DNA from: Leucobacter sp. PH1c | Lineage (GTDB): Bacteria; Actinomycetota; Actinomycetes; Actinomycetales; Microbacteriaceae | Reading direction: 5' to 3' | Length of the DNA: 64,000 nucleotides | Assembly (NCBI RefSeq): GCF_000633415.1 | Contig: NZ_AYMV01000022.1 | Coordinates: 62,001 to 126,000, forward strand | Shown: in pieces, positions 11,089 through 26,387 of the stretch | How positions within the stretch are numbered: the first letter of the stretch is position 1 | Layout of the letters: every line of letters starts with the position of its first letter | Translations under genes and position numbers: made by a program | The notes under the pieces: model-generated | What the model was told of the DNA's origin: nothing | Databases searched by the model: none | What the model saw: the letters and a program-made list of their open reading frames with translations, nothing else

Positions 11089-12588
11089 CTAGAGGCGGCG
11101 GAGGCGCACCTCGAGGGTGCCGAACACCATGTGCTCGGTCGCGGGGAACGCAAGGCCGGGCGGCAGCTGGGCGCGCTGCCCGTTGCTCGACACCAGCGTG
11201 AGGCCGTTCGTGGAGTTCAGATCCTCGACCGTCCACTCCCCGTCCGCGAGGCGGAGCCGCACGTGCGACTTCGAGACGGTTCGGGTCGGATCGGCAAGCA
11301 GCAGCGTGTCCGCGCCCTCGCTGCTCGTGGGCTTCCGCCCCGCGATCACGTGCGCACCCGGCAGTTCGAGCACGTCGCCGTCTGGGAGAACGAGACCCCA
11401 GCGCTCGGCAGCGGGTTCGGCGGCGGGCGCAGCGGGCGCAGCAGGCGCAGCAGGCGCAGCAGGCGCAGCAGGCGCGGCGGGCGCGGCGGGAGCAGCCACC
11501 TCGGGCCCGGCGGGAGCAGCCGCGGCGGGCGCAGCAGGCGCGGCGGGCGCCTCAGGCTCCGCGGGAGCCGCAAGCTCCTCGGGTTCCGCTGCGGGGACCG
11601 GCGCAGGAACCGCCGGGGCCGCAGGTGCCGCAGGGGCCGCAGGGGCCGGCCAGGCGAACGGCTCGGGGGCCGCGCGCACGCCGAGCGGCGTGGCGGGGCG
11701 CTCCCCGAGCTCCTCCGCCGCGAGGCGCTCGAAGTTGCCGATCGTGGTGCTGCTGAAACCCCAGTCGTTCATCGCGTGCGGATCCTGCACCGCGTGCGCA
11801 CGATCCGCCGCGGGCCCCGCACCCGCCGAGTGCGGTGCGACGGGCGCCACGGGCGCGGGCCGCAGGGGCTCGACCCGCTCGGTGTCCTGCTCGGCGGCCA
11901 TCTCGGCGAAGGCACGCTCGGACACGGGCGGGAGCCCCTGCCATGCAGCGGGTTCGAGAGCGGGCTCGACGGGCGGTTCGGGAGTGCCACCGGCGCCCAT
12001 CGCGGGCGCGGCGGAAGCACCGGGCGCGGCGGGAGTACCGGGCACAGCAGGAGCGCCGGGAAGGGGCGCGGCCGACGGAGCGACCGGCGCGGCACCAGGC
12101 GCCACCGGCGTCGCTGCGGGCGCGACGGGCGCTGCCGCGGGGGCGCTGGGGCCCGCGGGGGCGAGCGGCGGGAAGGCCGGGCCGCCGTCAGTCACGCGAG
12201 CCCCCGCGTACGCGCCGTCGCCGATGTGGCTCGCGAGGAGCATCGCCCAGATCGGAGGGAGGAACGCGCCGAGCACGGTGTAGGCCGCGCCCTTCCCGAA
12301 CTCGCGGTTCAGCCGGTGGATGGCGATGATGCTCACGACCACCACGACGAGCACGAGTCCCGGCACGAAGCCGAGCAGCACGAGCCAGCCGGGGAGACCC
12401 GCTCGGCCGATCAGACGCCACTGGTTCCAGACCGGGATCCAGCCGTCGCGGGCGGGGAGCCCGAGGTAGGGGAAGAGCTTCGACAGCGCCCACAGGTACC
12501 AGATGAAGAGCACGAGCGCGACGAGTCCCCAGATGCTGAGAATCGCGACGAGGACCGTGGCTCCGCCGCTCCCGAGGTCAAGACTCAT
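11089..12588 (-). CDS. Membrane protein with DUF5684-like N-terminus and C-terminal FHA domain
   Basis: 499 residues. Three hydrophobic segments in residues about 10-130 (VAILSIWGLVALVLFIWYLW, LVLLGFVPGLVLVVVVVSII and a third) anchor it in the membrane. They flank the WIPVWNQWRLIGRAGLPGW stretch typical of DUF5684-type proteins. A long Ala/Pro-rich linker (about 140-400) leads to a C-terminal forkhead-associated domain with all key residues: GRKP, SKSHVRL and STNGL. FHA domains bind phosphothreonine, so it is a likely target or reader of the kinase encoded at 24416-25534. It is separated by 136 bases from the upstream gene and may have its own promoter (TAGAAT at 12662-12667, minus). Confidence 0.82.
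   Translation of the reverse strand: MSLDLGSGGATVLVAILSIWGLVALVLFIWYLWALSKLFPYLGLPARDGWIPVWNQWRLIGRAGLPGWLVLLGFVPGLVLVVVVVSIIAIHRLNREFGKGAAYTVLGAFLPPIWAMLLASHIGDGAYAGARVTDGGPAFPPLAPAGPSAPAAAPVAPAATPVAPGAAPVAPSAAPLPGAPAVPGTPAAPGASAAPAMGAGGTPEPPVEPALEPAAWQGLPPVSERAFAEMAAEQDTERVEPLRPAPVAPVAPHSAGAGPAADRAHAVQDPHAMNDWGFSSTTIGNFERLAAEELGERPATPLGVRAAPEPFAWPAPAAPAAPAAPAVPAPVPAAEPEELAAPAEPEAPAAPAAPAAAAPAGPEVAAPAAPAAPAAPAAPAAPAAPAAPAAEPAAERWGLVLPDGDVLELPGAHVIAGRKPTSSEGADTLLLADPTRTVSKSHVRLRLADGEWTVEDLNSTNGLTLVSSNGQRAQLPPGLAFPATEHMVFGTLEVRLRRL
11421..11492. repeat. Nine-base tandem repeat in the FHA-protein linker
   Basis: About eight copies of a GCAGGCGCA-type unit in frame, coding for repeated Ala-Ala-Pro. 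Later copies diverge to GCGGGCGCG. The repeats fit a flexible, length-variable linker between the membrane part and the FHA domain, and copy number may vary between strains. Confidence 0.75.
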
Positions 12589-12661
12589 CGCTTCGTCACC
12601 GTTCCGTTCGTTCGAGGGCTGGGTACGGGCTCCGCCGCACCGCGAGTGTCCGCTGTACACC

Positions 12662-12667
12662 ATTCTA
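12662..12667 (-). promoter_or_regulatory. Possible -10 box for the FHA gene
   Basis: TAGAAT on the minus strand lies about 74 bases upstream of the FHA gene start, in the 136-base gap after the preceding gene. No convincing -35 element is visible, so this is tentative. Confidence 0.3.
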
Positions 12668-12724
12668 GGCGGCGCCCACATCCCTCAGGGGAGTCACCGC
12701 CCGCGGAGTGCGGCCGCTCAGGGC

Positions 12725-13303
12725 TCAGCCGAGCAGCGCGGCGCAGATCGCCCAGATTCCCGCTGCCGCCCCCACGAGTACGAGCGGACCGCCCACGAGC
12801 ACGAGCGTGCGGAACCGCGCGTTCTGCCGGGCAATCGAGGGCAGTGCCGCGCGGCGCGCGGCGGCCTCCGCCACGGGATCGGACTCGGGGCCGGACGCAC
12901 CTCGGGGCCCCGACCCGCCGCGACTCGCGGCTGCGGCCGGGGCGGGATCAGCCGGGTCCGCGTCGAGCGGGGTGGGCCGGGCGCCGTACACGACGGGGAG
13001 CTCGGGGCGGGTGCCCGCGCGGGCGGGCGAGGGCTCGCCCCCGGGGGCCTCCGGCAGCCGCCGCGCGGGATCGAGCTCGGGTTTGAACATGAGCGCCGCG
13101 AGATCGCGGGCCGAGCGCTCGTCGGTCGGCTCGGGAACTGGCGGAGCGGGAGTACCGGTCGTCGCACCGGTCGTCGTCCCTGCGATCGCGCCGGGAGCGC
13201 CCGGCTCCGGGGCGCGTGCTCCGGCGCCGTCCTGCCCGCGCCCGCGGGAGCCGCCTTCTGCGCGATCACCCGCGCGATCACCCGCGCGATCCTGCTCGCT
13301 CAT
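12725..13303 (-). CDS. Hypothetical single-pass membrane protein
   Basis: 192 residues, no recognised family. The N-terminal two thirds are polar, rich in Ala, Gly, Pro, Arg and Asp, and look disordered. A basic patch (ARQNARFRT) precedes one C-terminal hydrophobic segment (about residues 165-190, LVLVGGPLVLVGAAAGIWAI). That makes it a tail-anchored protein with most of its mass in the cytoplasm. The ATG overlaps the stop of the transglutaminase-like gene by four bases (ATGA), so translation is coupled. The N-terminus contains three DRAG-type repeats. Being part of the MoxR/DUF58/transglutaminase operon suggests a role in that system, but nothing more specific can be said. Confidence 0.7.
   Translation of the reverse strand: MSEQDRAGDRAGDRAEGGSRGRGQDGAGARAPEPGAPGAIAGTTTGATTGTPAPPVPEPTDERSARDLAALMFKPELDPARRLPEAPGGEPSPARAGTRPELPVVYGARPTPLDADPADPAPAAAASRGGSGPRGASGPESDPVAEAAARRAALPSIARQNARFRTLVLVGGPLVLVGAAAGIWAICAALLG
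13261..13290. repeat. Twelve-base tandem repeat (2.5 copies)
   Basis: CGCGATCACCCG is repeated in frame near the start of the small membrane-protein gene and codes for repeated Asp-Arg-Ala-Gly. It looks like simple repeat expansion with no sign of function. Confidence 0.7.
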
Positions 13304-15855
13304 CGTGCTCCTCCGCTCTTCCGGACCCCGCCCGCGCCGCCACGAATGCCGCCGCCGCCACGGACGCCGCCGCGCCGAGCGATCCCGAACGAGGCGAGCG
13401 ACCACCGCGCGCGCAGCCGCGCGCCCCGCGTCCCCGCCCCCGCGAGCCGTTCCCGGGCCCGGTCCACCTCGGCCCAGAGCGCGTCGGCCTCGGCGTCGGT
13501 GAGGCCGTCGCGGGAGAACACGGCGCGATCGACCTGCGCCGCGAACGCCGCCCCGCCGGGGATCGATGCCCCGAGCATGGCCCGGGTGGCCGGCGCCCCG
13601 GGGCCCGGTGCTCCGGGGCCCGTCGCCGCGGGAGGCAGCGCCCCCGCGTCAGTGTGCAGGGCGACGAGTTCCTCCCAGGCGCCGAGTGCGCGGAGCTCCG
13701 GACTCGCTGCCCGGCGCCGGCTGCGCGCCCGGAGCGCCTTCACCGCGGGGACGAAGAGCAGCACGAGCGCGAGCAGCGCGAGCGCCGCGATCCCCAGCCC
13801 GATGGCCCGCAGCACGGGACCGATCGCCAGGGTCGACGCGGGCTCCGGTCCCGGCTCGGCGCTGCTGTCGCCCGCGCCGGCGCCGAGCTCGGGGTCGCTC
13901 TCGTGCGCGTCGCGCTCCTCGGGCACCGTGGGGTGCTCGGGCAGTCGCTCGCCCTCGGTGATCGCCGCGGGCGGCGTGGCCACCTGCGGGGTGACATCGA
14001 GCGGCGCCCACACGCCGTCGGCGCCCCGGGCCTCGACCCACGCGCCGATGTTCCGGCCGGCGCAGACCTCCGCGCACGCGGGCACGCCGGGCACCTCACC
14101 ATCGCTCTCGGGGTCGAGCCGCACACCGAGCACGACGCGCGCGTCGTAGCCGAACGCCTCGGCCAGCCGCGCGGCCGCCACGGCGAACTGCTCGTCGTCG
14201 CCGATGCCCGCGACGAGCTCGGCGGCCGCCGCGTCGGACCCGGCGGCGGTCTCCCGATCGGCGAGCTGCGCGAAGAGCTCCTCGATCCGGGCGTTCGAGT
14301 GGCCGCCCGCGCTCGCCACGAAGCGCGTGCCGTGCGCCTCGGCAAGCTCATCGAGCCACGCCCGCTCGCCCGGCTCGGCGCTCAGCGCGTGGCTCAGGTA
14401 GCCGCGATCGCGGAGCCGCTCGATCGCTTCCGCGAGACCCGCCCCGGTCGCCGGCAGACGCTGCATGCGCACCCAGCGATCGAGCTGCGGGAAGGCGGTT
14501 CGGTCGATCTGCGGGGTCGCGTGGGCTGGCGCGGGATCGAGCTCGGCATCCGCTCCGCCCCCGGCCTCGGCCTCGAAGCCGTCACCCGCCCGGAGGCCCG
14601 CAGCGGTCGGCACGGCGATGCCGGCTCCGGTCTCCCGGTCGAGGTAGAACCCGTCGCGCAGTTCGGCGGCGCGCGGCCCGGTGAAGCGCGGCGGCCCCGT
14701 GAGCGCTGCGGGCAGCGGCACCCAGATCCCCGGCGCCGCGGAGCGAAGCTCGACGGCGACGCGGCTCGGATCCTGCGCCGCGGTGCCGCTCGGGAAGCGC
14801 GTGAACGTGCCGGGCTCCGCGGTGACCGCGAAGTCGACGCCGTTCTCGTCGTCGAGCACGGCGAGGCGGAGGCGCTCGGGCAGCGCGGCACCGTCGAGCG
14901 GCGATACGGCGAAGATCGGGGCGTCGAGAGCGGCGTCGCGCTTCCAGACCCGGTACCCCGAGAGGGGGCTGCTCTGCGCGCGGACGATCAGCACGGGATC
15001 GACCCGGTCGCGGGGCAGCGTCCGCGGCGCGGTCGCCGCGGCGGGGGCGAGCACCGCGCCCGCCGCGAGCGCGACGACGAGGAGCCCGGCGCCGAGCCCG
15101 CCGCGCAGCGCGCGCCGGAGCGAGACGGGGGCGGCGCCACCCAGCCGGAGGGCCGCGCGCCGGGCCCGGCCCGAGCTCCAGCCGATCCAGGCGGCCACGA
15201 TCACAGCGGTGGCGCACCAGAGCGCGAGCTCGCGCGGAGCGGCGATCTCGACCGCGCCGAGCACGATCGCTTCGCTCGGCGTCGCGGGCCCGAGCACGGT
15301 GCCGAAGAGGAGCGGCGCGAGGAGCGGGAGCGCCGCGCACGCGTGGGCACGGGCACCGCCCGCGGCAAGGCGCACCGCGATCGCGGCTGCCACCATGACG
15401 GTGACAAGGAGCGGCACGAGCACCGTCTGGTAGGTGCCGAGCGGAAGCACCAGGGTGAGGATCTGCTTCCACCCGAGCGCCACGGCGGCGAGCCCGTCGC
15501 CGAGCGCGCTGAGGAGCGACCGGGGGCTGCCCCCGAGCGCGGACGGCACGGCGACGGGGACCACGAGGGCCGCAAAGAGGAGGCCGAGGGCGAGCACGGT
15601 GCCGGCGCCCCAGCGCCACCGCACCCCCGCCCGCACCGCGAGGAATGCGGCGACGGCGCCCGCGGCGGCGACCACCGCGATCCAGGGGTCCGCGTAGATG
15701 GGCCAGGCCGAGCAGATCGCGAGGAGCGCGACGGCGAGCGCGAGCACCGCGCCGCCGCCGGCTCCCCCCGCGCGCGGGGGATGCGGCGCACCCGACTCCC
15801 CCGGAACGCCAGAGCCGAGCGACGCCGCTCTCGCTGCCCCTCCCGCCGCCGTCAT
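13300..15855 (-). CDS. Transglutaminase-like (TgpA-type) membrane protein with degenerate active site
   Basis: 851 residues. The N-terminal third carries several hydrophobic segments (from about residue 33, VLALAVALLAICSAW). An extracellular region with a transglutaminase-like core follows, then a further membrane segment near 660-680 (IGLGIAALALLALVLLFVP) and a cytoplasmic tail. In the core the usual G-x-C-x-x-FA motif reads GDDEQFA, with Asp554 in the Cys position. The usual HAWVEV reads IGAWVEAR, with Gly604 in the His position; only Asp620 (PLDVTP) of the triad remains. It is therefore probably non-catalytic and may bind peptide or glycan. It is coupled by ATGA overlaps to the DUF58 gene before it and the small membrane protein after it. 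Confidence 0.85.
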   Translation of the reverse strand: MTAAGGAARAASLGSGVPGESGAPHPPRAGGAGGGAVLALAVALLAICSAWPIYADPWIAVVAAAGAVAAFLAVRAGVRWRWGAGTVLALGLLFAALVVPVAVPSALGGSPRSLLSALGDGLAAVALGWKQILTLVLPLGTYQTVLVPLLVTVMVAAAIAVRLAAGGARAHACAALPLLAPLLFGTVLGPATPSEAIVLGAVEIAAPRELALWCATAVIVAAWIGWSSGRARRAALRLGGAAPVSLRRALRGGLGAGLLVVALAAGAVLAPAAATAPRTLPRDRVDPVLIVRAQSSPLSGYRVWKRDAALDAPIFAVSPLDGAALPERLRLAVLDDENGVDFAVTAEPGTFTRFPSGTAAQDPSRVAVELRSAAPGIWVPLPAALTGPPRFTGPRAAELRDGFYLDRETGAGIAVPTAAGLRAGDGFEAEAGGGADAELDPAPAHATPQIDRTAFPQLDRWVRMQRLPATGAGLAEAIERLRDRGYLSHALSAEPGERAWLDELAEAHGTRFVASAGGHSNARIEELFAQLADRETAAGSDAAAAELVAGIGDDEQFAVAAARLAEAFGYDARVVLGVRLDPESDGEVPGVPACAEVCAGRNIGAWVEARGADGVWAPLDVTPQVATPPAAITEGERLPEHPTVPEERDAHESDPELGAGAGDSSAEPGPEPASTLAIGPVLRAIGLGIAALALLALVLLFVPAVKALRARSRRRAASPELRALGAWEELVALHTDAGALPPAATGPGAPGPGAPATRAMLGASIPGGAAFAAQVDRAVFSRDGLTDAEADALWAEVDRARERLAGAGTRGARLRARWSLASFGIARRGGVRGGGGIRGGAGGVRKSGGAR

Positions 15856-17114
15856 GCGCGCTCCCGCCGCATGAGCAGCTGCGGTGCGTCCTGCAGGGCG
15901 CCGACCGTGAGCAAGGCGCCGCGGTCTCTCCGGTGCACCGCGGGATCGGCGAGCCGCTCACAGCGGACCGTGAGCACCGCGACGTCGCCCGCGAAGGGCA
16001 TCGCCGCGCGGGCGAGCCGCTGGGGGTCGGGTCGCGAGCCCGTCACGAGGACCACGAGGGACAGCTCGCGCCCGGACTCCGCGAGGCCGCGGGCGAGCTG
16101 CTCGATCCGTACCCCCGACTCAGCGGCGCGGAGTTCCGACCAGGCATCGAGGAGCTGCGGGATCGTGCCGCTCGGGAGCTCGCTGAGGCCGGCGACCGCG
16201 GCCCGCGGGCGGCCGGCCGCCCACTGGCTCCCGATGAGGCGCTCGCGTCCCTCGCGCACCGCGTGCAGGGCGAAGGAGGCGGCCACGCTCACCCCGAGTT
16301 CGAATTCCTCGGCGCTCGCGTACTCGTCGGCGCGACCGTCGAAGAGCACCGCGATGCGCGCGGTCTGCGACTCCTCGTACTGGCGCACCATGAGCGTTCC
16401 CGTCTTCGCGGTCGAGCGCCAGTGGATGTGCCGGCGCGCATCGCCCGCGGCGTACTCGCGCACGGCGTGGAAGGAGAGATCGGCGTCGCTCAGCCGGCGG
16501 CTCGCGCTGCCCTCCAGATCTCGCACGAGCCCCGCGCTGCTCGGCGGCAGCGGGGTGGTCACGGGGTGCACGTGGATGCGGGTGCGGTCGGGCCAGCTGA
16601 GCTCGCGCCGCAGTAGCCCGAGCGGATCGCGCCGCGTGAGGGCGAGCGGGCCGACCTCGATCACTCCGCGCTCCGGCGTCGGCACGGCGAGCGGCAGCGC
16701 GACCGCGCCCCCGGGGGCGAGGAGCGGAACCGGGAGCTCGCGGAGAGCGGGGCCGACGGGGAGCTCGGCCGTCGCGGGGAGCGCGGGGGTGCGGCTCGCG
16801 TTGGCCACCTCGACGCTCAGCTCCACCGAGCCGCCCGCGACGACCCGCGAGCGCGGCGCCTGCAGCTCGACCCGGTAGGCCCGGCCCCCGAGGAGGAACG
16901 GCAGCGCGACGAGCAGCAGCACGGCAGCGGCGATCGCGAGCGTCCACGCCTCGACCCAGCCGAGCGCCAGCCCGAGCGCCGCGGCGGCCGCGCCGCCGAG
17001 CAGCACGAAGCGACCGGCGGGCGTGGTCGCCCGCGCGGCACGCACGGCGGCCGCGCGCACGGCGGTCGCCGCGCGGGCGGGCGCGCTCGGAGCGGGGTCG
17101 GTGGGAAGGGTCAC
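15852..17114 (-). CDS. DUF58 domain-containing membrane protein
   Basis: 420 residues. Two hydrophobic segments at about residues 35-75 (VLLGGAAAAALGLALGWVEA and AAAVLLLVALPFLLGG) form the anchor. A beta-rich middle follows, then the DUF58 signature at about 220-245 (VREYAAGDARRHIHWRSTAK, then GTLMVRQYEES). DUF58 proteins are von Willebrand A-like partners encoded with MoxR ATPases and transglutaminase-like proteins. GTG start at 17114; GTGA overlap with the MoxR stop and ATGA overlap with the next gene's start. The exact role of the family in actinobacteria is not established. Confidence 0.88.
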   Translation of the reverse strand: MTLPTDPAPSAPARAATAVRAAAVRAARATTPAGRFVLLGGAAAAALGLALGWVEAWTLAIAAAVLLLVALPFLLGGRAYRVELQAPRSRVVAGGSVELSVEVANASRTPALPATAELPVGPALRELPVPLLAPGGAVALPLAVPTPERGVIEVGPLALTRRDPLGLLRRELSWPDRTRIHVHPVTTPLPPSSAGLVRDLEGSASRRLSDADLSFHAVREYAAGDARRHIHWRSTAKTGTLMVRQYEESQTARIAVLFDGRADEYASAEEFELGVSVAASFALHAVREGRERLIGSQWAAGRPRAAVAGLSELPSGTIPQLLDAWSELRAAESGVRIEQLARGLAESGRELSLVVLVTGSRPDPQRLARAAMPFAGDVAVLTVRCERLADPAVHRRDRGALLTVGALQDAPQLLMRRERA

Positions 17115-18268
17115 GCGGTGCCGTTCTCCTGCGGGACGGGGACGTCGAGGAGCACCTGGCCGACCACCTGCTCTGCGGTCACGCCGTCGAACTCCGCCTC
17201 GGGCTCGAGCACGAGACGGTGGGCGAGAACGGGCAGCGCGAGGTCGCGCACGTCGTCGGGGGTGACGTAGTTGCGCCCGGCCGCGGCGGCCCAGGCGGTC
17301 GCGAGGCGCACGAGCGCGAGGGCGCCGCGCACACTCGCCCCGAGGCGCACCTCGCGGGCGCGGCGGGTGGCCTCGACGAGCTGCACCGCGTAGTCGGCGA
17401 CGAGCGGGCTCACGTGCACCCGGTCGACGAGCGCCTGCGCCTGCGCCACCATCGCCGTCGTCACGACGGGCTCAAGCGGGGCCTGCGCGCCCCGGTGCTG
17501 CTGCAGGATCCGCAGCATCGCCGCCGCGTCCGGGTACCCGATCGACGTCTTGATCATAAAGCGGTCGAGCTGCGCCTCGGGCAGCCGGTAGGTGCCGGCC
17601 TGCTCGACGGGGTTCTGCGTCGCGATCACGAGGAACGGGGAGCCCACATCGTGGGAGACGCCGTCGATCGTCACGCGCGATTCCTCCATCACCTCGAGCA
17701 GCGCGGACTGCGTCTTCGGGCTCGCGCGGTTGATCTCGTCCGCGAGCACGACGTTCGCGAAGATCGGGCCAGCGTGGAACTCGAAGACGCCCGCGCGCTG
17801 GTCGAACACGGAGATGCCCGTCACGTCGCCCGGGAGGAGGTCGGGGGTGAACTGGATCCGCGAGGACGTGCCCTGGATCGCTGCGGCGAGCGCCCGCGCG
17901 AGGGCGGTCTTCCCGGTGCCCGGCACGTCTTCGAGGAGCACGTGCCCGCCCGCGAATGCGCTCGCGAGCACGAGCTCGATGACGCGGCGCTTGCCCTGGA
18001 TCACTCCGCCGAGCGCGTCGGCGCAGGCGTGGAACACCTGCTGCACCCAGCGGGCCTGCTCCGGACGGAGCGCGTCGGCGCCGGCCGGAACGGTCGCCGC
18101 GCCGGGAGCCGGGAGCGCCCCGGTTCCCGCGGGTGCAGCCGTCGCTCCCGGTGCTCCGGGCGCCGCGGAGGCTGCAGGCGCCGCGGCGGCTGCAGGCGTC
18201 GCCGGAACGAGCGTCGGATCGTCGTCGGCGACGGGGCCGGGCTGCGGGTCCTGGGGCGAAGCGTTCAT
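17111..18268 (-). CDS. MoxR-family AAA+ ATPase
   Basis: 385-residue AAA+ chaperone-like ATPase. A low-complexity Ala/Pro N-terminus (about 75 residues) precedes the ATPase core: Walker A DVPGTGKTALARAL, Walker B VVLADEINRASPKTQSALLE and sensor 1 VIATQNPVEQAGTYRLPEAQ. MoxR proteins remodel or activate partner proteins, often the VWA/DUF58 proteins encoded next to them, and the DUF58 gene overlaps it by four bases here. It begins 62 bases after the giant Ig-like gene and belongs to the same minus-strand cluster. Family certain, client unknown. Confidence 0.93.
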   Translation of the reverse strand: MNASPQDPQPGPVADDDPTLVPATPAAAAAPAASAAPGAPGATAAPAGTGALPAPGAATVPAGADALRPEQARWVQQVFHACADALGGVIQGKRRVIELVLASAFAGGHVLLEDVPGTGKTALARALAAAIQGTSSRIQFTPDLLPGDVTGISVFDQRAGVFEFHAGPIFANVVLADEINRASPKTQSALLEVMEESRVTIDGVSHDVGSPFLVIATQNPVEQAGTYRLPEAQLDRFMIKTSIGYPDAAAMLRILQQHRGAQAPLEPVVTTAMVAQAQALVDRVHVSPLVADYAVQLVEATRRAREVRLGASVRGALALVRLATAWAAAAGRNYVTPDDVRDLALPVLAHRLVLEPEAEFDGVTAEQVVGQVLLDVPVPQENGTA

Positions 18269-18329
18269 GAGTCCTCGATGGGTCGGAGCGGGCGGATGGG
18301 GGTGAGCGGGCGGAGCTGTGGGGGCGGGA

Positions 18330-21300
18330 TCACGGGCTGCACACCGGCACCTGGAGCGTTGCCGGGGCGAGTCCGCCGAAGTCCCCGCTCCAGCTCACCG
18401 TGAGCGGCACGGTTCCCCCGTCAGGCGCGCCGAGCGCGAAGCCCGCGCTCCCGGCGGCGGCGCCCGAAACGGTCACCGCGCGCGCTCCGGCCCCGGGATC
18501 GCCGAGCGCTGCGGGGTCGACGCAGCTGCCGTTCGCGGTGACGAGCACGGGGCGCGGGGCACCGCTCCACGCGACGGGCACCGCGGCCGAGCACTGCTCG
18601 CCGAGGCACTGCTGCACGGTGATGGGGGTCCCGTCGTTCGGGTCGGCGGGCAGCTCTGCCGTGCCGCCGGGCTGGTAGCGGAGGGTGGCCCCACTCAGCT
18701 GCCCCTCCACGGCGGGCGCACCGAGGAGCTCGTAGCTCGCCCGGCCGGCGTCGCCGCTCGGCGCGGTCGCGACCGCGTAGCTCACGCGGGGAGCGGGGAT
18801 GGCCCCGCCGATCTGGATCTCGTCGGACACCGCCGAGCTCACGCCGTACTCGCTGCGCGCGCAGGCCGCTCCGCGGAACCAGGCGCCGCGCGTCAGGCCG
18901 CTGAACTCCGCGCTCGCGGATCCCCCGCTCACGCAGTCGGGCGCGGATCCGCGCGGGGCGACGGCGTAGCTCAGTGTGACGGCCTCGCCGGCGTGCGCGC
19001 CCGCGCCGAGCGCGGTCACGGTCGCGCTCGTCGACCCCTCGGCGCTCGCGAGGCTCGCACCGCTCAGCGGCGGCGCTCCGATCACGCGGGCGTCCGTGCG
19101 GGCGGAGGCGCCGGTCGCCGAGCCGCCGGGAACGGGTGGCAGCTCGTGCGCCGTCACCGGCGTCACCGTCACCGTCGCACCGCCGACGGGAAGGCCGCGC
19201 AGGTCGACGGAGCCGCGGGAGCCGGAGATCACGCCGGCGTCCGCGCCGCCGACGCTCACCCGGAGTTCGCGAGTGTCGGCGGAGCCCGCCGCGGTGACGC
19301 GCAGCCCGCCGCGCGCCTGGTCCGTGTTCGCCGCGTCGGGCAGCGAGACGGCGCTGATGGTCGGCTGCTCGGGGGCGCGGTACGCCCACGCCGTGATCGC
19401 ACTCGACGGGCTCGACTCGCCGACCGCGTTGCGCGCGCGGGCCGTGAAGCTGTGCCGCTCACCGCTCGTGAGCCCCGTGACCTCGCAGTCGAACGCGGCG
19501 GCACCCGCGGGAGCGCAGCGGGGCGCCCCGGCGCCCTGCACCTCGACGCCCGTCACCTCGGGGTGGGCCTGCCGTCCCCCGAGGACCACGCGGAACGAGG
19601 CGCTCGTCGCGGTGAAGCCGGTCTGGGTGATGCTCGCGGGTGCGTCCGGGAGGCCCTGCGCATCGAGGGCGATCGTGCCGGAGCCGATCCTGCCCTGCGC
19701 GTCGCGCACCGTGAAGCCGACCGAGCAGGTACCGCCGGGGCCGCCCGAGCCCGGCCAGCTCACCGTCGCGCGGCGCTCTCCGGCGACCGCGAAACGGGCG
19801 AGCGTGCATGCGCCGCCGTCGATCGCGGTCACCGTGAGGCCGCCGCCGGGCTTCCCGGCGAAGGGATCGTATTCGCCGCCGACGCCGACGAGATCCGCCG
19901 CGCAGGCCTCGCCGACCGTGCAGCGCAGCGCGACCGTCGCGCCGCGCGGGAGGTCCCGGGGGCTCTCGCCCACCTGCAGTGTGAGCGGCGCGCGGCTCTC
20001 CCCCGCGCCGGTCGCGGTGACCGTGACCGTCTCCTGGGCACCGGCGCGGGCATCGGCGCGGGCGGTGACGCGCACGCGCGCGCCGTCCGCGGCGACCTCG
20101 AAGGTCTCGCCCCCGCCCGCGACGGCGAAGCGGAGCTCGGGGCGCGCACCCGTCGCGCCCTGCCAGTCGACCATGTCGGCGAGCTCGATCGTCGCGGTCG
20201 CGCCCGGGGCGACGGTCCGGGCGAGGGGGCGCAGCTCCGCCGTCGGCTCGCTCGGCACGACGCGCACCGGCACGGGCAGGGTGGTCCAGCGCTCCTGGCC
20301 CTCGAGCCGCACCTCGATGCGGCACGTGTCCGCCCAGGGGCCGCCGCGGCCGGCGTCGTAGCGGATCGTGCGCGCACCGTCCGCGGCGCAGCTTGCCCCG
20401 GAGCGGCCGGTCGCGAAGGTCCCCTGCCGCAGCTCGACGCGGTCCTCGCGCCCGGCGCTCACGAGATCGCCGAGCTCCGCCGTGACGCGGCCGCCCTCGT
20501 CGACCACGAGCGGGCTGAGATCGGCGCGGAGCGTGAGCCGGAGCTCGTCGAGCGGGGGGATCACGAGGAAGCCGTAGCTCGACACGTCGGTTCCGTTCGC
20601 GTCGGTTCCGCTCACGCGGAACACGACGAGCCCGCCGTCCGGGTCGTAGTCGCCGCTGATCCGGGATCCGGACACACGGTACTCGCCGCGCTGCCCGTCC
20701 CAGAGGGAGAGCGTGAGCGCTGCGGGGTCCCCGCCGGGCCAGCGCACCTTGCCCGAGAGCACGTCGACGCCACCGCCGCTGAATTCCGCCCGGTCCTGTG
20801 CGCTGAGCACGGTGTCGCGGACGGCCGGGGCCTGCGCCCCGACGCGCTCCGAGGTCTGCACCACGATGAGCCCCTCAGCCGTGCTCGAGCTGAGCTTCGA
20901 GCGCACGGTGTAGCGGTAGGAGACGGTGCCGAGCTCCTCGCCCGCGCTGATCCCGATCCGGCCGCGGCGCAGCTCCGAGTCATCGATCGCCGCCGCGAGT
21001 GCACGGTACTCGGCGCTCTCAGGGGCCGCCGTCGTGTTCGGCACGACGGATTCGAGCACGAGCTCGCCGCCCGCGGGGTCCACGTCGTTGTCGAGCGGCT
21101 GGATCACGGTGGATCCGCCAGGCACGAGGCGCACCTGATCCGTCATCGCGGTGGGCGGGCCGCCCGCCTCGCCCGTCACGACGACGTGGAGCGTCCCCGC
21201 TCCGACCCCGCCACGGCCATCGCTCACCTCGTAGCTGACGCGGCTCGTGCCGGGCTCGGCCGCCGCCGACGCACGGACCTCGAACCCCGTGCCGCTCGGG

Positions 21301-24300
21301 TCGAGCGTGACGGCGATGCGCGGGTCCGCGCCGGGGTCGACGCTGCGGAGGCGCACGCGGTCGCCGTCCGGATCGACGCCCGTGAGCGGCACCCGCACGG
21401 TCGTGGACCCGCCGGGGGCGACACGCGCCGTCACCGCACCGGGCTGGGGATCCCGGTTCGGTCCGGCAGCCACGACCGTGATGACCGCCTCGCCGGAGTC
21501 GCTGAGCTCGGGGGCGCTCGCCGCGTAGGCGGTGTAGCCGACCCGGTAGGTGCCCGGCTCGCGCGGGGCGACGTAGCGGAGCGTGCCGCCCGCGGCGAAC
21601 GCGAGCTCCCCCGGAGCCCCGGAGGAGGTGACTTCCGGATCGAGCAGGAGGCGTTCGCCGGGCGGTGCGACGTCGTTGTCGAGCACCCGGATGTCGACCG
21701 TCGAGCCCGCGCGCACCGTCGCGGCGTCGCCCACGGCGATCACCCCCGAACCGCTCGTCTCGGGCACCTGGAACACCGTGAGCCTGCCTCGCGCGGTCGC
21801 CGAGCCGTCGGAGACCGCGATCTCGGCGGCGCCGATGCGGCCGGGAGCCCCGTCGGCCGTGCTGCCCGCGACGCGGACGCGGGAGTGCTCGACGACCTCG
21901 GCGCGCAGATCCCCGTCGACGACCGCCGCGCTGCGCACGGCGAGCGCCTGCGCCGCGGCGCCCGGGATCGCGTCGAGCACCTCGACCGTCGAGTCCGCGA
22001 GCGGGCGCACGTACGCGCGGAGCGGCGGGAGAACGAGTTCGGGCCCGCCCGCGACGGCAGTGACCCGCAGCGTGCCAGTCGTCTCGAGGCCGGTCACCGC
22101 GTCGCGCACCGTGACCGCGAAGTTCGAGACGCCCGGCTCGGTCGCGGTGACCTCGATCGTGCCGGCGACGGGGTGCGGTACGGCGACGGCGGAGCCGCCG
22201 AGCGGGGCGGCGTCGACGAGGGTGAACGCACCGGATCCCCCGGCGACCCGGTCGAGCGGGCGCAGCGTCGCAGCTGCGTCGACCCCGATCGTCGCAGCCG
22301 TCCCCGTCACGACGGGGGCGGCGTCGGCCCGCACCGGGAGCACGAGCTCCCGCTCCGCCTCGGCGCCGCGGCTGTCGCGCACCGTCACGCGCAGCGCGAT
22401 GTCGGCGGGGCCGGCGTTCGCGTCCGTGTGCCGCACCGCAAGGCTGCCGTCGGCGGTGACGATGGCGCGCACCGGGTCCTCCGCGCGCACCGGCGCGACA
22501 CCCGCGAGGGTCATCACGTCGCCCTCCGGATCGACCCAGCCCTCGAGCAGCGGCGCGACGAGCGTGCCGCCCGGCACGATCGCGGGGACGCCCCACTCGC
22601 GCTGGCACCCCTCGACCGGGCACCAGGCGGGCGGCTCGTTCTCAGCGTCGTCGGCGATGCGGATCGTGACGGTCGCGGCGGCGGACTCGAGCGCACCATC
22701 GGTGATGCGGTAGGTGAACGAGGCGCTGCCGTGCGCGCCGGGCGCGGGCTGCAGCACGAGCGATTGGCGATCCGGCAGCAGTTCGACCGTGCCGAAGGAT
22801 TCGGGCAGCGGCGCATCGGCGAGCGACTGCGGCACGATCGTGAGGACGTCGCGCACGTTCGCGTCGAAGTCGTTGAGCAGGACGGGGAGCGGCGTGGGCG
22901 CTCCCGGGCGGGCGCCGAACGAGATGTCGACGGCCGTGGGCGGCACCTGCTCGGTGACCTCCTCGACCGCGACGGCGCCGCGCTGCTCCTGCGGCGGATC
23001 GGCGAGGCTCCACTGCGAGAGCGGGATCAGCGCGCCGTCCGGCAGCGTCCAAAGCATGCCCGTGCGCGGTTCGCTGAGCACCGCGCGGGAACCGTTGCTC
23101 TGGATCACCGGCGCGAGATCGCTGGCCTCGCCCACGGCGTCGTCGAACTGGAGGGGCAGCATCTCGCCGCTCCCGCTGCGCCAGAGCGCACCCGAGCCCT
23201 GGCCGAGCCAGGCGGCATAGCGCTCACCCGCGACCTGGGCGGGGCGCACCGGGGTGCCCTCGGTGCTCGCGATCCGCTCGGGCTCCCCTCCCGGAGCGAC
23301 CGCGAGGAGCCCACCCTGGTCCGCGATGAGCGCCGCATCGCGCGCAACCGCGCCTGCGGCGGATCCGGTTCCCGCGACCGCGCGGTCGGTGCTGCTCGAC
23401 TGCAGGAGCGGCGCCCCCTCGGCCTCGATCGTCACGGGCGCGGCGCCGGCACGGAGGAGCCTGCCGTCGGCGGCATCGAGCAGCACCCAGTCTGCGCCAA
23501 CGAGCGCGAGCTGCGGCGCGGCGGCCGCCTCGCCGGGGAGCTCCGCCGCGGCGCCGCGTTCCGTTCCGCGGACGACGTCGAAGCGGCGCACGGTGTGCGT
23601 GCCCGCCGAGTACACGGCGAGCGTGCCGTCCTCGGCGAGCGCGATGGCCGCCGCGTCGAGCGCGCGGGCGCCGTCGTTGCCCCCGTCGGCGGATCCGGCG
23701 CCCTCGGGATCGCTCGCGTCAGATGCGCCGGATTCGTCCGATCCGTCCGCCGCGTCCGTTCCGTCCGCCCCGGGAGCATCCGCTCCCACGGGAGCGAGCG
23801 CGGCAATGCGCCGTTCGAGCTCCTCGGTGTCGGGCACCGCTCCGAGCGCCTCGCCCGTCAGCTCCCCCGCGAGTACGGCCCCACGCTCGGTGCGGACGGC
23901 GATGAAGCGCCCGGCCGTGACCACTTCGCGCGCACCCTCGGGCATGCGGACTCCGCTGCTCGCGTCTCCGCCGGCCCCCGCGCCCGTGTCCACGGCGGCT
24001 TCCGCGTCGCCCGCCGCGCCCCCGTCCGCATCCGCAGCGGCGTCCTGCGCTCCGGTGCCGCGCTCACGACCCCCGAGGTCGCGCGGCGACGCGGGATCCA
24101 CCGCCCAGGCCTCGCCCGTGCCGTTCGTGAGCACGACCGCGCTCGCACCGGCCTGCACCACGCCGCTCGGCTCGACCGCCGAGCGCACCGTGTCGAGCTC
24201 GCCCGTGTCCGTATTCACCCGGCCGTACTGTCCCGTGTCGCGCGCGACCCACACGCCCGGCTCCACGCGCGGCACGTCGCGCGCGTCGTAGCCGCCCGAA

Positions 24301-24419
24301 ACGATCGCCACGGTCGCGATGAGCGCCGTCGCGACGCCGGCGGCGCCCCACGCCCACCAGCGCCGACGCGACACGCGATGCCCCTGCCGCGTCTGCCACC
24401 CCCGCCTCGCGGCGGTCAC
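18330..24419 (-). CDS. Giant single-pass membrane protein with Ig-like and fibronectin type III domains
   Basis: 2029 residues. A basic stretch (VSRRRWW) precedes one transmembrane helix at about residues 22-42, so the rest is expected outside the cell. Residues about 45-470 look like a repeat or propeller-type beta region. Residues about 470-1310 hold repeated cadherin/Ig-like modules with VDPDGD-type calcium-loop signatures. A fibronectin type III module lies at about 1585-1685 (LTSGERHSFTARARNAVGES), with more beta-rich modules after it. No C-terminal anchor is present. The GTG start overlaps the kinase stop by four bases (GTGA), so the two proteins are made together. It is probably a surface adhesion, sensing or scaffold protein linked to the kinase. 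Function unknown. Confidence 0.85.
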   Translation of the reverse strand: MTAARRGWQTRQGHRVSRRRWWAWGAAGVATALIATVAIVSGGYDARDVPRVEPGVWVARDTGQYGRVNTDTGELDTVRSAVEPSGVVQAGASAVVLTNGTGEAWAVDPASPRDLGGRERGTGAQDAAADADGGAAGDAEAAVDTGAGAGGDASSGVRMPEGAREVVTAGRFIAVRTERGAVLAGELTGEALGAVPDTEELERRIAALAPVGADAPGADGTDAADGSDESGASDASDPEGAGSADGGNDGARALDAAAIALAEDGTLAVYSAGTHTVRRFDVVRGTERGAAAELPGEAAAAPQLALVGADWVLLDAADGRLLRAGAAPVTIEAEGAPLLQSSSTDRAVAGTGSAAGAVARDAALIADQGGLLAVAPGGEPERIASTEGTPVRPAQVAGERYAAWLGQGSGALWRSGSGEMLPLQFDDAVGEASDLAPVIQSNGSRAVLSEPRTGMLWTLPDGALIPLSQWSLADPPQEQRGAVAVEEVTEQVPPTAVDISFGARPGAPTPLPVLLNDFDANVRDVLTIVPQSLADAPLPESFGTVELLPDRQSLVLQPAPGAHGSASFTYRITDGALESAAATVTIRIADDAENEPPAWCPVEGCQREWGVPAIVPGGTLVAPLLEGWVDPEGDVMTLAGVAPVRAEDPVRAIVTADGSLAVRHTDANAGPADIALRVTVRDSRGAEAERELVLPVRADAAPVVTGTAATIGVDAAATLRPLDRVAGGSGAFTLVDAAPLGGSAVAVPHPVAGTIEVTATEPGVSNFAVTVRDAVTGLETTGTLRVTAVAGGPELVLPPLRAYVRPLADSTVEVLDAIPGAAAQALAVRSAAVVDGDLRAEVVEHSRVRVAGSTADGAPGRIGAAEIAVSDGSATARGRLTVFQVPETSGSGVIAVGDAATVRAGSTVDIRVLDNDVAPPGERLLLDPEVTSSGAPGELAFAAGGTLRYVAPREPGTYRVGYTAYAASAPELSDSGEAVITVVAAGPNRDPQPGAVTARVAPGGSTTVRVPLTGVDPDGDRVRLRSVDPGADPRIAVTLDPSGTGFEVRASAAAEPGTSRVSYEVSDGRGGVGAGTLHVVVTGEAGGPPTAMTDQVRLVPGGSTVIQPLDNDVDPAGGELVLESVVPNTTAAPESAEYRALAAAIDDSELRRGRIGISAGEELGTVSYRYTVRSKLSSSTAEGLIVVQTSERVGAQAPAVRDTVLSAQDRAEFSGGGVDVLSGKVRWPGGDPAALTLSLWDGQRGEYRVSGSRISGDYDPDGGLVVFRVSGTDANGTDVSSYGFLVIPPLDELRLTLRADLSPLVVDEGGRVTAELGDLVSAGREDRVELRQGTFATGRSGASCAADGARTIRYDAGRGGPWADTCRIEVRLEGQERWTTLPVPVRVVPSEPTAELRPLARTVAPGATATIELADMVDWQGATGARPELRFAVAGGGETFEVAADGARVRVTARADARAGAQETVTVTATGAGESRAPLTLQVGESPRDLPRGATVALRCTVGEACAADLVGVGGEYDPFAGKPGGGLTVTAIDGGACTLARFAVAGERRATVSWPGSGGPGGTCSVGFTVRDAQGRIGSGTIALDAQGLPDAPASITQTGFTATSASFRVVLGGRQAHPEVTGVEVQGAGAPRCAPAGAAAFDCEVTGLTSGERHSFTARARNAVGESSPSSAITAWAYRAPEQPTISAVSLPDAANTDQARGGLRVTAAGSADTRELRVSVGGADAGVISGSRGSVDLRGLPVGGATVTVTPVTAHELPPVPGGSATGASARTDARVIGAPPLSGASLASAEGSTSATVTALGAGAHAGEAVTLSYAVAPRGSAPDCVSGGSASAEFSGLTRGAWFRGAACARSEYGVSSAVSDEIQIGGAIPAPRVSYAVATAPSGDAGRASYELLGAPAVEGQLSGATLRYQPGGTAELPADPNDGTPITVQQCLGEQCSAAVPVAWSGAPRPVLVTANGSCVDPAALGDPGAGARAVTVSGAAAGSAGFALGAPDGGTVPLTVSWSGDFGGLAPATLQVPVCSP

Positions 24420-25534
24420 CCGCCGCCGCCCAGCCAGGCCCAGAGCCCGCCGGCCACCACCGCGACGGCTGCGAGGGCTACGCCCGCGCCGATGAGGGCG
24501 GCTCGCCGCGTGGAGTGCACGCGCTCCACGACGACGCCGTCGGAATCGGCGTCGCGCAGCTCGGCCCGCGTGCGGCGGCTCGGCACCGCGCTCACCACGG
24601 GCCCGCGCACGCCGACGGGAATGGCACCTGTCTCGGGGGTCCAGGCCTGCGCGACCACCTCGAGCGGCGTCACGTCGTAGCCGTAGCCGCGCTGCACCTC
24701 CTGCAGCGCGGCGCCGAACTCGGCCATCGTGGGGAAGCGCTCGGCCGGGTTCCGCCGCATCGCGCGCGCGAGCACGGCGTCGAACGGCTCGTAGCCCTGC
24801 GCGCCCGGAATGGGGCGCACCCGCGCCCGGCTGATGCGCTCGATGAGCAGCGTGCGGGTGTTGCGCTCCCGTACGTCGTCCTCGAACGGGGAGATGCCCG
24901 CCGCGAACGAGAACAGCGTTGCGCCGAGCGCCCAGACCTCGCTCGCCACGCTGCCCCGGGTCTCGAGCCCCACGACCTCAGGCGCGGACCACGGCACGGA
25001 CATCGCGACCTCGTCTGCGGGGACGGGCCCCGTGGGTACTCCCTCGCCGAGGGCCGCGTGGCCGCCCGCGATCCCGAAGTCCGAGAGGGCGGGCTTCCCG
25101 AGCGAGGTGAGGAGCACGTTCGCCGGTTTGATGTCGCGGTGCAGCACACCGGCGCGGTGCGCCGTCTCCAGCGCGCCCGCGAGCCGCACGCCCGCGTCGA
25201 GCACCTCGTGGAGCTGTGCCGGGCGCCGCTTCGTGAGTGCGCCGAGCGAGGCCGGGCAGAACTCCATCACGAGGAACGGCTGCCCCGCGAGCGAGACGCC
25301 CGCCTGGAAGATCGACACGATGGACGGGTGGCTGCTGAGCGCGGCCATGGCATCCGCCTCGCGCTCGAACGAGGCGCGCTGCGCCGGCGCGGCGTCGAGC
25401 ACCTTCACGGCGACCTCGCGCCGCGGGAAGTCCTGCTCGTAGAGGTAGACCTGGGCGAAGCCGCCCGAACCGAGCGGACGCACGTAGCTGAACCCCGGGA
25501 TCACCGGTCGGGTGGGCGTGCGCTCACCGGCCAC
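24416..25534 (-). CDS. Ser/Thr protein kinase, single C-terminal membrane anchor
   Basis: 372 residues. The kinase domain (about 15-275) is complete: glycine loop LGSGGFAQVYLYE, lysine in VAVKVL, catalytic loop HRDIKPANVLL, LSDFG, activation segment ending WSAPEV, and the conserved Asp/Trp region VASEVWALGATLF. A basic stretch (HSTRRAA) and one hydrophobic helix (about 347-368) follow, leaving only about five residues outside. It has no PASTA or other sensor domain, so sensing must come from a partner; the giant Ig-like protein is translationally coupled to it. The GTG at 25534 begins two bases after the stop of a 15-codon leader ORF. A downstream FHA protein could read its phosphorylation. 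Confidence 0.93.
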   Translation of the reverse strand: MAGERTPTRPVIPGFSYVRPLGSGGFAQVYLYEQDFPRREVAVKVLDAAPAQRASFEREADAMAALSSHPSIVSIFQAGVSLAGQPFLVMEFCPASLGALTKRRPAQLHEVLDAGVRLAGALETAHRAGVLHRDIKPANVLLTSLGKPALSDFGIAGGHAALGEGVPTGPVPADEVAMSVPWSAPEVVGLETRGSVASEVWALGATLFSFAAGISPFEDDVRERNTRTLLIERISRARVRPIPGAQGYEPFDAVLARAMRRNPAERFPTMAEFGAALQEVQRGYGYDVTPLEVVAQAWTPETGAIPVGVRGPVVSAVPSRRTRAELRDADSDGVVVERVHSTRRAALIGAGVALAAVAVVAGGLWAWLGGGG

Positions 25535-25536
25535 GG

Positions 25537-25584
25537 CTATCCCCGGGCCCCGGAGAGGGGGTGCTGCGCCGGGGTGCTCGTCAT
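25537..25584 (-). CDS. Possible leaderless 15-residue leader peptide before the kinase
   Basis: ATG at 25584 followed by 14 sense codons (MTSTPAQHPLSGARG) and TAG at 25537-25539, two bases before the kinase GTG and in a different frame. The -10-like TATCAT lies exactly seven bases upstream of the ATG, as for the leaderless genes elsewhere in the window. The kinase GTG has no clear ribosome site of its own, so reinitiation after this small ORF could drive kinase translation. The peptide itself may have no function. Conservation in relatives would be needed to confirm it. Confidence 0.4.
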   Translation of the reverse strand: MTSTPAQHPLSGARG

Positions 25585-25591
25585 GCCCTCA

Positions 25592-25597
25592 ATGATA
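25592..25597 (-). promoter_or_regulatory. Possible -10 box for kinase operon
   Basis: TATCAT on the minus strand ends seven bases before the leader-peptide ATG at 25584, which places the transcription start on or next to that ATG. The -35 region is not convincing. Confidence 0.45.
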
Positions 25598-25626: not shown

Positions 25627-25662
25627 CGCACACCCCCGCTCCGAACGGAGCGGGGGTGTGCG
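25627..25662 (-). terminator. Terminator downstream of rplA
   Basis: Perfect 17-bp stem (CGCACACCCCCGCTCCG and its complement) with a two-base AA gap, 36 bases after the rplA stop. On the minus strand it is followed by TCGTTTG. It separates the ribosomal-protein unit from the kinase operon, which reads in the same direction. Confidence 0.8.
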
Positions 25663-25697: not shown

Positions 25698-26387
25698 TTA
25701 GAGGCCCGAGACGTCCAGCGGGATGCCGGGACCGAAGGTCGTCGAGACGGCGCCCTTGATCACGTACTTGCCCTTGGCCGACGACGGCTTGAGACGCGAG
25801 ATCTCGTCGAGCACGGACGTGATGTTGTCCGAGAGCTGCTCAGCCGTGAAGGAGGCCTTGCCAACGATGAAGTGCACGTTGGCGTGCTTGTCGACGCGGA
25901 ACTCGATCTTGCCGCCCTTGATGTCGGTCACGGCCTTGGCCGGGTCCGGGGTGACGGTGCCGGTCTTCGGGTTGGGCATGAGGCCACGGGGACCGAGCAC
26001 CTTACCGAGACGGCCGACCTTGCCCATGAGCTCGGGGGTCGACACGGCCGAATCGAAGTCGGTGTAGCCTGCGGCCACCTTCTCAATCAGCTCGTCGCCG
26101 CCGACCTCGTCGGCGCCGGCAGCGATCGCTGCCTCGGCCGCGGGGCCCACTGCGAACACGATGACGCGGGCGGTCTTGCCCGTGCCGTGGGGCAGGCTGA
26201 CGGTGCCGCGCACCATCTGGTCTGCCTTGCGGGGATCCACACCGAGCTTGACGGCGACCTCAACGGTCGAGTCGGTCTTGGTGGAACCGGTCTCCTTCGC
26301 CAGGGCGACTGCCTCGGCGGGAGCGTAGAACTTGTCTGCCTGGATCTTCTCGGCAGCGGCGCGGTACGCCTTCGACTTCTGTGCCAT
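25698..26387 (-). CDS. rplA: 50S ribosomal protein L1
   Basis: 229 residues, the usual length. It starts [15 protein letters not shown] and contains the conserved L1 stretch [20 protein letters not shown] and the C-terminal [16 protein letters not shown]1 binds 23S rRNA at the L1 stalk (E site) and in many bacteria represses translation of its own operon mRNA. It follows rplK by 11 bases, in the conserved secE-nusG-rplK-rplA order. Confidence 0.98.

Follow-up and report, generated by a model that had tools for sequence, protein, structure and literature searches.

A putative leaderless small ORF with its stop at the start of a serine/threonine kinase gene in Leucobacter

Do leaderless small ORFs drive the genes that follow them, or do they merely precede them? 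One locus of Leucobacter sp. PH1c bears on this question. In the 64,000-nucleotide stretch of DNA analysed here (hereafter the window), an earlier reading of the sequence alone had picked out, ahead of a protein kinase gene, a TATCAT hexamer, seven nucleotides, an ATG, 15 codons, a TAG, two nucleotides and the GTG of the kinase, and had proposed that synthesis of the kinase depends on ribosomes that terminate on the small ORF and then reinitiate. Direct reading of the minus strand returned exactly this series (Table 1). How much of the proposal follows from it was examined through the spacing of leaderless starts in the same genome, the conservation of the locus in the genus, and the possible ribosome site ahead of the kinase.

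The small ORF, its promoter and the operon behind it

The spacer that separates the TATCAT box from the ATG of the small ORF (25584-25582, minus strand) reads TGAGGGC, i.e., 7 nt, and the ORF closes with a TAG at 25539-25537 in a reading frame different from that of the kinase. The kinase frame itself holds no alternative ATG, GTG or TTG between the GTG at 25534 and an in-frame TGA at 25591-25589 (stop at -57). The folding of the first 111 nt of the RNA is ordinary (z 0.36).

Table 1. Features of the kinase locus and its neighbours in the window
Feature	Position	Strand	Basis
-10 box TATCAT	25592..25597	minus	sequence and spacing statistics
Putative leaderless small ORF, ATG + 14 codons + TAG, MTSTPAQHPLSGARG	25537..25584	minus	sequence
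Gap CC, 2 nt, between small-ORF stop and kinase GTG	25535..25536	minus	sequence
Serine/threonine protein kinase, GTG start, 372 aa	24416..25534	minus	Pfam PF00069 (Pkinase), E 1.6e-31
GTGA stop/start overlap, kinase to Ig-repeat protein	24416..24419	minus	sequence
Second cistron, 2029-aa bacterial Ig-repeat (Big_9) protein	18330..24419	minus	Pfam
MoxR-type AAA ATPase	17111..18268	minus	Pfam AAA_3, E 9.5e-62
DUF58 protein, GTGA overlap with MoxR gene	15852..17114	minus	Pfam and sequence
Transglutaminase-core protein, ATGA overlap with DUF58 gene	13300..15855	minus	Pfam and sequence
14-bp GC-rich hairpin, GTTC loop, between rplA and promoter	25629..25660	minus	sequence
rplA (ribosomal protein L1), upstream neighbour, same direction	25698..26387	minus	Pfam

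The distance between box and start codon was set against that at other starts in 81 pieces of the same genome, window included (1,620,307 bases), in which every TANNNT followed by RTG at a spacing of 2-13 nt was collected. Such sites are most numerous at spacings 6 (244) and 7 (132), every other spacing having 49-77. At spacings 6 and 7 combined, 254 of 376 sites (68%) open a long CDS directly (70% at 6 and 64% at 7), as against 37 of 238 (16%) at spacings 2-5 (p 1.3e-38), where the individual shares are 10-18%; the share is intermediate at 8 and 9 (33-34%) and amounts to 16-25% at 10-13. When the hexamer was scrambled in six ways, 7-21% of the sites at spacing 6-7 opened a long CDS directly. 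On these statistics a gap of 6-7 nt is the mark of leaderless genes in this genome, and leaderless starts are abundant in it. The 7 nt ahead of the small ORF falls within this signature, in agreement with the earlier suggestion that its spacing is that of other leaderless genes here. Transcription is predicted to begin at the A of the small-ORF ATG (25584), a start that the spacing statistics support, short of proof.

The kinase, which shows a single C-terminal hydrophobic stretch by eye, has its nearest named relatives in Leucobacter chromiireducens strains (84% identity). It heads one run of genes on the minus strand (11089-25534) that continues with the Ig-repeat giant, the MoxR, DUF58 and transglutaminase genes and, further on, an FHA-domain protein; several of the junctions are 4-nt overlaps, and a gap of 61 nt lies between the Ig-repeat and MoxR genes. 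A 2120-aa open frame on the plus strand (18318-24680), antisense to the Ig-repeat gene, is most likely spurious, a consequence of high GC content. Upstream of the promoter, rplA is preceded by an ORF that by eye is rplK, and the hairpin that follows rplA was assigned, also by eye, as the rplKA terminator. The hairpin was absent from the output of a terminator scan, and no good T run lies 3' of it.

A conserved geometry around a drifting peptide

The kinase was matched in all 54 Leucobacter genomes compared. Each locus was anchored on kinase residue 10, and TANNNT, 5-8 nt and RTG were sought in the 160 nt upstream; six loci (L005-L010) that duplicate others were left out of the counts. A coupled geometry, i.e., a -10 box and RTG opening an ORF that is out of frame with the kinase and stops within -4 to +8 of the kinase start, is present in 42 of the 54 genomes, that of the window included, the small ORFs being 12-36 codons long. 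Measured from the kinase start, the end of the stop falls at -4 in 2 genomes, -2 in 7, -1 in 1, +4 in 5 and +8 in 27; the 2-nt gap, the window's type, thus marks 7 of the 54 genomes, all in one clade. In 6 others (L074, L079, L081, L082, L083 and L092) the same type of promoter opens the kinase directly and in frame, and a -10 box at leaderless spacing stands in 48 of the 54 genomes. The remaining 6 (L062, L063, L066, L089, L093 and L094) are neither coupled nor direct by the rule; by eye, L062 has the small ORF with a 10-nt spacing, and L066 has an out-of-frame GTG ORF that ends at an ATGA and has no recognisable -10. Beside the coupled and direct loci, five -10/RTG matches were set aside (two with TACCGT and one each with TATTTT, TAAGCT and TAAGGT).

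Dinucleotide shuffles of the same 42 segments gave a stop in the -4 to +8 range, which had been chosen after inspection of the data, in a mean of 2.6 of 42 (maximum 10 over 1000 runs), and the other non-kinase frame, taken as a control, in 6 of 42. The start nearest the stop was used throughout, a single candidate start being present in 20 of the 42 loci, and the 42 coupled loci are not 42 independent cases because the rows share descent. On a kinase tree made by a quick method, in which 20 of 51 inner branches are weak, coupled loci lie on both sides of the midpoint root, and the geometry takes seven states with 12 changes by parsimony. The sequence-only reading had staked itself on conservation of the small ORF in close relatives, and there the coupled ORF was found, at many times the shuffled frequency. 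The arrangement was correctly described, and it lies far beyond chance expectation.

The 27 loci in which the stop lies 8 nt inside the kinase frame are the most informative about the sequence that is kept. In these, kinase codon 2 always ends in T (NNT) and codon 3 opens with GA, AA or AG, as the overlapping stop demands, although codon 2 may stand for any of seven residues (A, P, S, G, V, T or H) and all three stop codons, TGA, TAA and TAG, occur. T is otherwise a rare third base: it closes 4.7% of the NCN codons of ten genes of the window and 7.4% of those among kinase codons 3-100. The N-terminal residues of the kinase do not force this pattern, since only 5 of the 27 other genomes show it in a count by eye (L044, L057, L058, L062 and L082).

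The peptide encoded by the small ORF behaves differently from these positions. By eye, the 42 peptides are similar only among close relatives, and no residue common across clades was seen. Led by A, R, P, G and S, they contain 21 cysteines in 764 residues. GC content by codon position (0.75/0.675/0.708 for the small ORFs vs 0.68/0.514/0.878 for the kinases) reveals no coding bias or codon periodicity in the small ORFs. Between close relatives, the six pairs whose ORFs match in length are separated by 8 synonymous and 15 nonsynonymous codon changes, two further pairs being of unequal length. Stop codons are likewise mixed across the 42 loci (TGA 24, TAG 12 and TAA 6). From the overlap pattern, the variable peptides and the lack of coding bias, what is kept is the leaderless start together with the placing of the stop at the start of the kinase; these two positions, rather than the product, seem to be under selection.

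How ribosomes may reach the kinase start

In the window, pairing with the anti-Shine-Dalgarno (anti-SD) sequence upstream of the kinase GTG has an energy of -5.7 kcal/mol. The 42 coupled loci have a median of -5.8 kcal/mol, compared with -5.15 for shuffled bases of the same stretches (p 0.22), -3.25 for coding windows, than which the kinase starts are stronger (p 3e-5), and -6.5 for 45 rplA starts, than which they are not clearly weaker (p 0.16). At nine of the 42 kinase starts the pairing is weaker than -3 kcal/mol, a good SD is present in some species (L044 and L056), and no conserved SD beyond G-rich composition was found in the 42 loci by comparison with the shuffles. The earlier remark that the kinase has no clear ribosome site was thus a fair one, for the window and for the set. 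Help from an SD, in the window as elsewhere, or ordinary initiation at the kinase is possible.

The best explanation of the locus, to which a probability of roughly 0.6 is given, is leaderless initiation on the small ORF followed by termination-reinitiation on the kinase. The promoter would start transcription at or beside the A of the ATG, and a ribosome would initiate on the 5'-terminal AUG without a leader, read 15 codons that are unimportant in themselves and stop at the TAG. It would then stay on the mRNA, shift 2 nt to the kinase GTG and restart; in other species the shift would be 1-4 nt forward or 4-8 nt back. The small ORF would act as a sequence-independent ribosome feeder, by which a leaderless promoter may express a kinase that has no conserved SD, and the kinase may in turn hand ribosomes on to the Ig-repeat protein through the GTGA overlap, in a chain that may continue. 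Small ORFs without fixed content at a predicted mRNA start suggest this kind of entry, through a mini-gene and then a restart on the kinase. The conserved -10/RTG and stop/start geometry, the unconserved peptide and the missing conserved SD all favour the reinitiation link that had been proposed, whereas an outright dependence of the kinase on it would go further than the comparison does, and 6 genomes start the kinase directly. Because these genomes begin the kinase at a leaderless codon, evolution can dispense with the small ORF; that they do so from the same promoter type suggests that it tunes output and is not indispensable. The additional idea of the earlier reading, a tie between kinase output and translation conditions that favour leaderless mRNAs, is speculative.

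The main competing reading accepts translation of the small ORF and reverses its effect: the ORF would divert the 5'-terminal ribosome out of frame, so that a fraction reaches the kinase and its level is kept low. Such a throttle is rather unlikely. It gains from the six direct starts, where the ORF is evidently unneeded for expression, and from the 8-nt overlap, which requires backward movement and, together with the nine weakly pairing starts, should make restarting inefficient; a mere decoy, however, has no need of a stop so close (8 nt or less) to where the kinase begins, and a later stop would repress better. That the small ORF is irrelevant, with 30S subunits initiating independently at the kinase start through a weak SD on a short-leader mRNA, is improbable. 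The pairing energies, in the window and over the set, are indeed not clearly unlike those of rplA starts, but they are no better than shuffles and fall below -3 kcal/mol in strength at the nine loci, and irrelevance would leave unaccounted for a stop/start geometry preserved while the intervening sequence changes. Still less probable is read-through from rplKA as the source of most kinase mRNA, the start at 25584 being minor and the kinase leadered. The direction of rplA and the intervening hairpin without a good T run would allow it, whereas the -10 box at leaderless spacing recurs in all but six genomes, at a spacing that tracks real gene starts in the genome sample.

Two further readings give the small ORF a role through its product or its frame. 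A peptide-dependent attenuator or a functional microprotein has precedent in mycobacteria, where leaderless small ORFs have been proposed as attenuating peptides (Shell et al., 2015, PMC4633059; reportedly also Canestrari et al., 2020), but the drifting peptides of 12-36 codons, the absence of codon periodicity, the A-, R-, P-, G- and S-led composition and the ordinary structure of the first 111 nt make it very improbable here, and it was rejected on the lack of peptide conservation. A programmed frameshift joining the small ORF to the kinase is hardly credible: stops 8 nt inside the kinase ORF in 27 of the 54 genomes would suit it, yet no single frameshift fits, because both non-kinase frames are used (30 and 12 of 42) and 10 of the 42 ORFs stop before the kinase start.

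Termination-reinitiation from the leaderless small ORF, if it operates here, may be part of a wider arrangement, which is put forward tentatively and probably claims too much as a whole. This would be a "feeder cistron" used throughout the genus, an expendable leaderless ORF of which only the 5'-terminal start and the stop position are kept, loading leader-naive ribosomes into a coupled chain (the kinase, the Ig-repeat protein and, after the gap, MoxR, DUF58 and transglutaminase), so that translation of a signalling module is set by leaderless initiation; at least one further Leucobacter gene would be preceded by the same arrangement. The locus offers a ready comparative test, in that a drifting peptide with fixed start and stop in 42 of 54 species is accompanied by 6 natural direct-start species. 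Additionally, it places before a signalling operon a conserved and probably translated element of a kind that is skipped in gene finding when a minimum length is imposed.

Related arrangements and known systems

The genome sample contains 45 leaderless small ORFs of 8-50 codons; in 13 of them the end lies no more than 12 nt from the point where a longer CDS starts, compared with 91 of 982 when the -10 hexamer is scrambled in six ways (p 2.6e-4), and chance alone would account for about four of the 13. In a smaller sample of 443,527 bases, the ORF of the window was the one coupled case among 8 small ORFs. Of the 12 other coupled candidates, five were followed across the genus, the genome of the window being included in the locus counts. 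Ahead of a glycosyltransferase-like gene, whose match is weaker than the Pfam cut-off, a leaderless ORF of 11-12 codons with a stop/start overlap was found in 13 of the 18 closest loci (the best 18 of 30; 14 of 18 if a spacing of 8 is allowed), the other 12 of the 30, at 39-47% identity, lying outside the count. The copy in the genome of the window, though outside the window itself (G000:C22:16186-16224; L183), is a 12-codon ORF with TAGGAT-N7-ATG and a GTGA overlap, and its peptide varies between loci.

Coupled leaderless ORFs also precede a leuS-like gene (11 of 30 loci fetched; 53 genomes matched), a pstS-like gene (8 of 30; 54 genomes matched) and an amino-acid permease-like gene (2 of 30; 42 genomes matched), these three names being assigned by eye; in 4, 9 and 2 loci of these sets, respectively, the ORF was counted as in frame with the gene. 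The permease-like coupling is probably due to chance. At the leuS-like gene (L153:13305-13355, minus strand), the peptide of the leaderless ORF begins with MCR and ends with RSRCV in the seven closest loci, and there the peptide may matter, since these residues are kept. An MFS transporter gene is coupled in 2 of 2 loci; its leaderless ORF of 10 codons (L149:14342-14374) joins the transporter through an ATGA and is kept in the one other genome of the genus that matches at E 1e-150.

In other genera of the family, matches to the kinase were found in 202 genomes (208 less 6 of the genus), many of the lower of which may be other kinases. By the rule, 0 of the 24 kinase loci listed (the best 24 of the 202 genomes) carry a -10/RTG ORF that ends at -4 to +8. 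At the closest of them (L095, 66% identity), a 13-codon GTG ORF ends by eye in the same ATGGCTGA overlap, with no TANNNT at 4-9 nt, and a related arrangement is possible there. None of the 24 has rplA within the 1.5 kb fetched, and an SD is seen by eye in many. At L099 and L104, where rplA is likewise absent from the 1.5 kb, the sequence just upstream of the kinase is FHA-like by eye. This comparison suggests that the head of the operon was rearranged in Leucobacter.

Among open-access titles and the opening parts of abstracts, no report of leaderless coupling in Leucobacter or its family was found. The locus resembles known termination-reinitiation pairs (Huber et al., 2019, PMC6728339; reviewed in PMC12548453) in that stop and start overlap or adjoin; unlike in those pairs of annotated genes, the first partner here is a leaderless ORF of about 15 codons. 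It also shares a leaderless small ORF ahead of other genes with the attenuators of Canestrari et al. (2020), but those ORFs are reported to be poly-cysteine and to rely on their cysteine codons, whereas cysteine is scarce in the peptides of Leucobacter (see above).

Closer is the class mapped by Shell et al. (2015, PMC4633059) in Mycobacterium tuberculosis, where transcript starts and translation were measured and 23 of 220 leaderless small ORFs were joined to the next gene by RTGA, a junction that 32 of 1000 random sites also had. The ORF in the window shares with this class a length of 15 codons, inside the 5-50 of the class, and a stop at a downstream start, and its RTG is predicted, from TATCAT-N7-ATG and the spacing, to lie at the 5' end of the mRNA. 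Additionally, the same paper gives an example in which leaderless initiation and coupling are conserved and the peptide is not, which is also the case here. Unlike in the strict class, the RTGA tetramer is missing; the window reads TAG-CC-GTG, and 27 of the 42 loci use the 8-nt overlap (5 have +4), so the window is a variant and not a member of the strict class. The evidence also differs in kind, being conservation in 42 of 54 genomes here and measurements there.

A further parallel is the synthetic leaderless bicistronic design built in Corynebacterium glutamicum (Liu et al., 2023, PMC10367133), which likewise places a leaderless promoter and a short fore-cistron ahead of a coupled gene. In that study, mutation of the fore-cistron ATG lowered output; a strong SD within the fore-cistron was required, the gain being lost on its mutation, and the junction was TAATG. 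Unlike that design, the Leucobacter locus is natural, and no SD conserved beyond base composition was found over its 42 coupled versions, nine of which pair more weakly than -3 kcal/mol; in the window, at -5.7 kcal/mol, an SD may contribute. By analogy, the design supports the mechanism favoured here, initiation on a leaderless small cistron followed by a restart on its neighbour, as one that can work in an actinobacterium.
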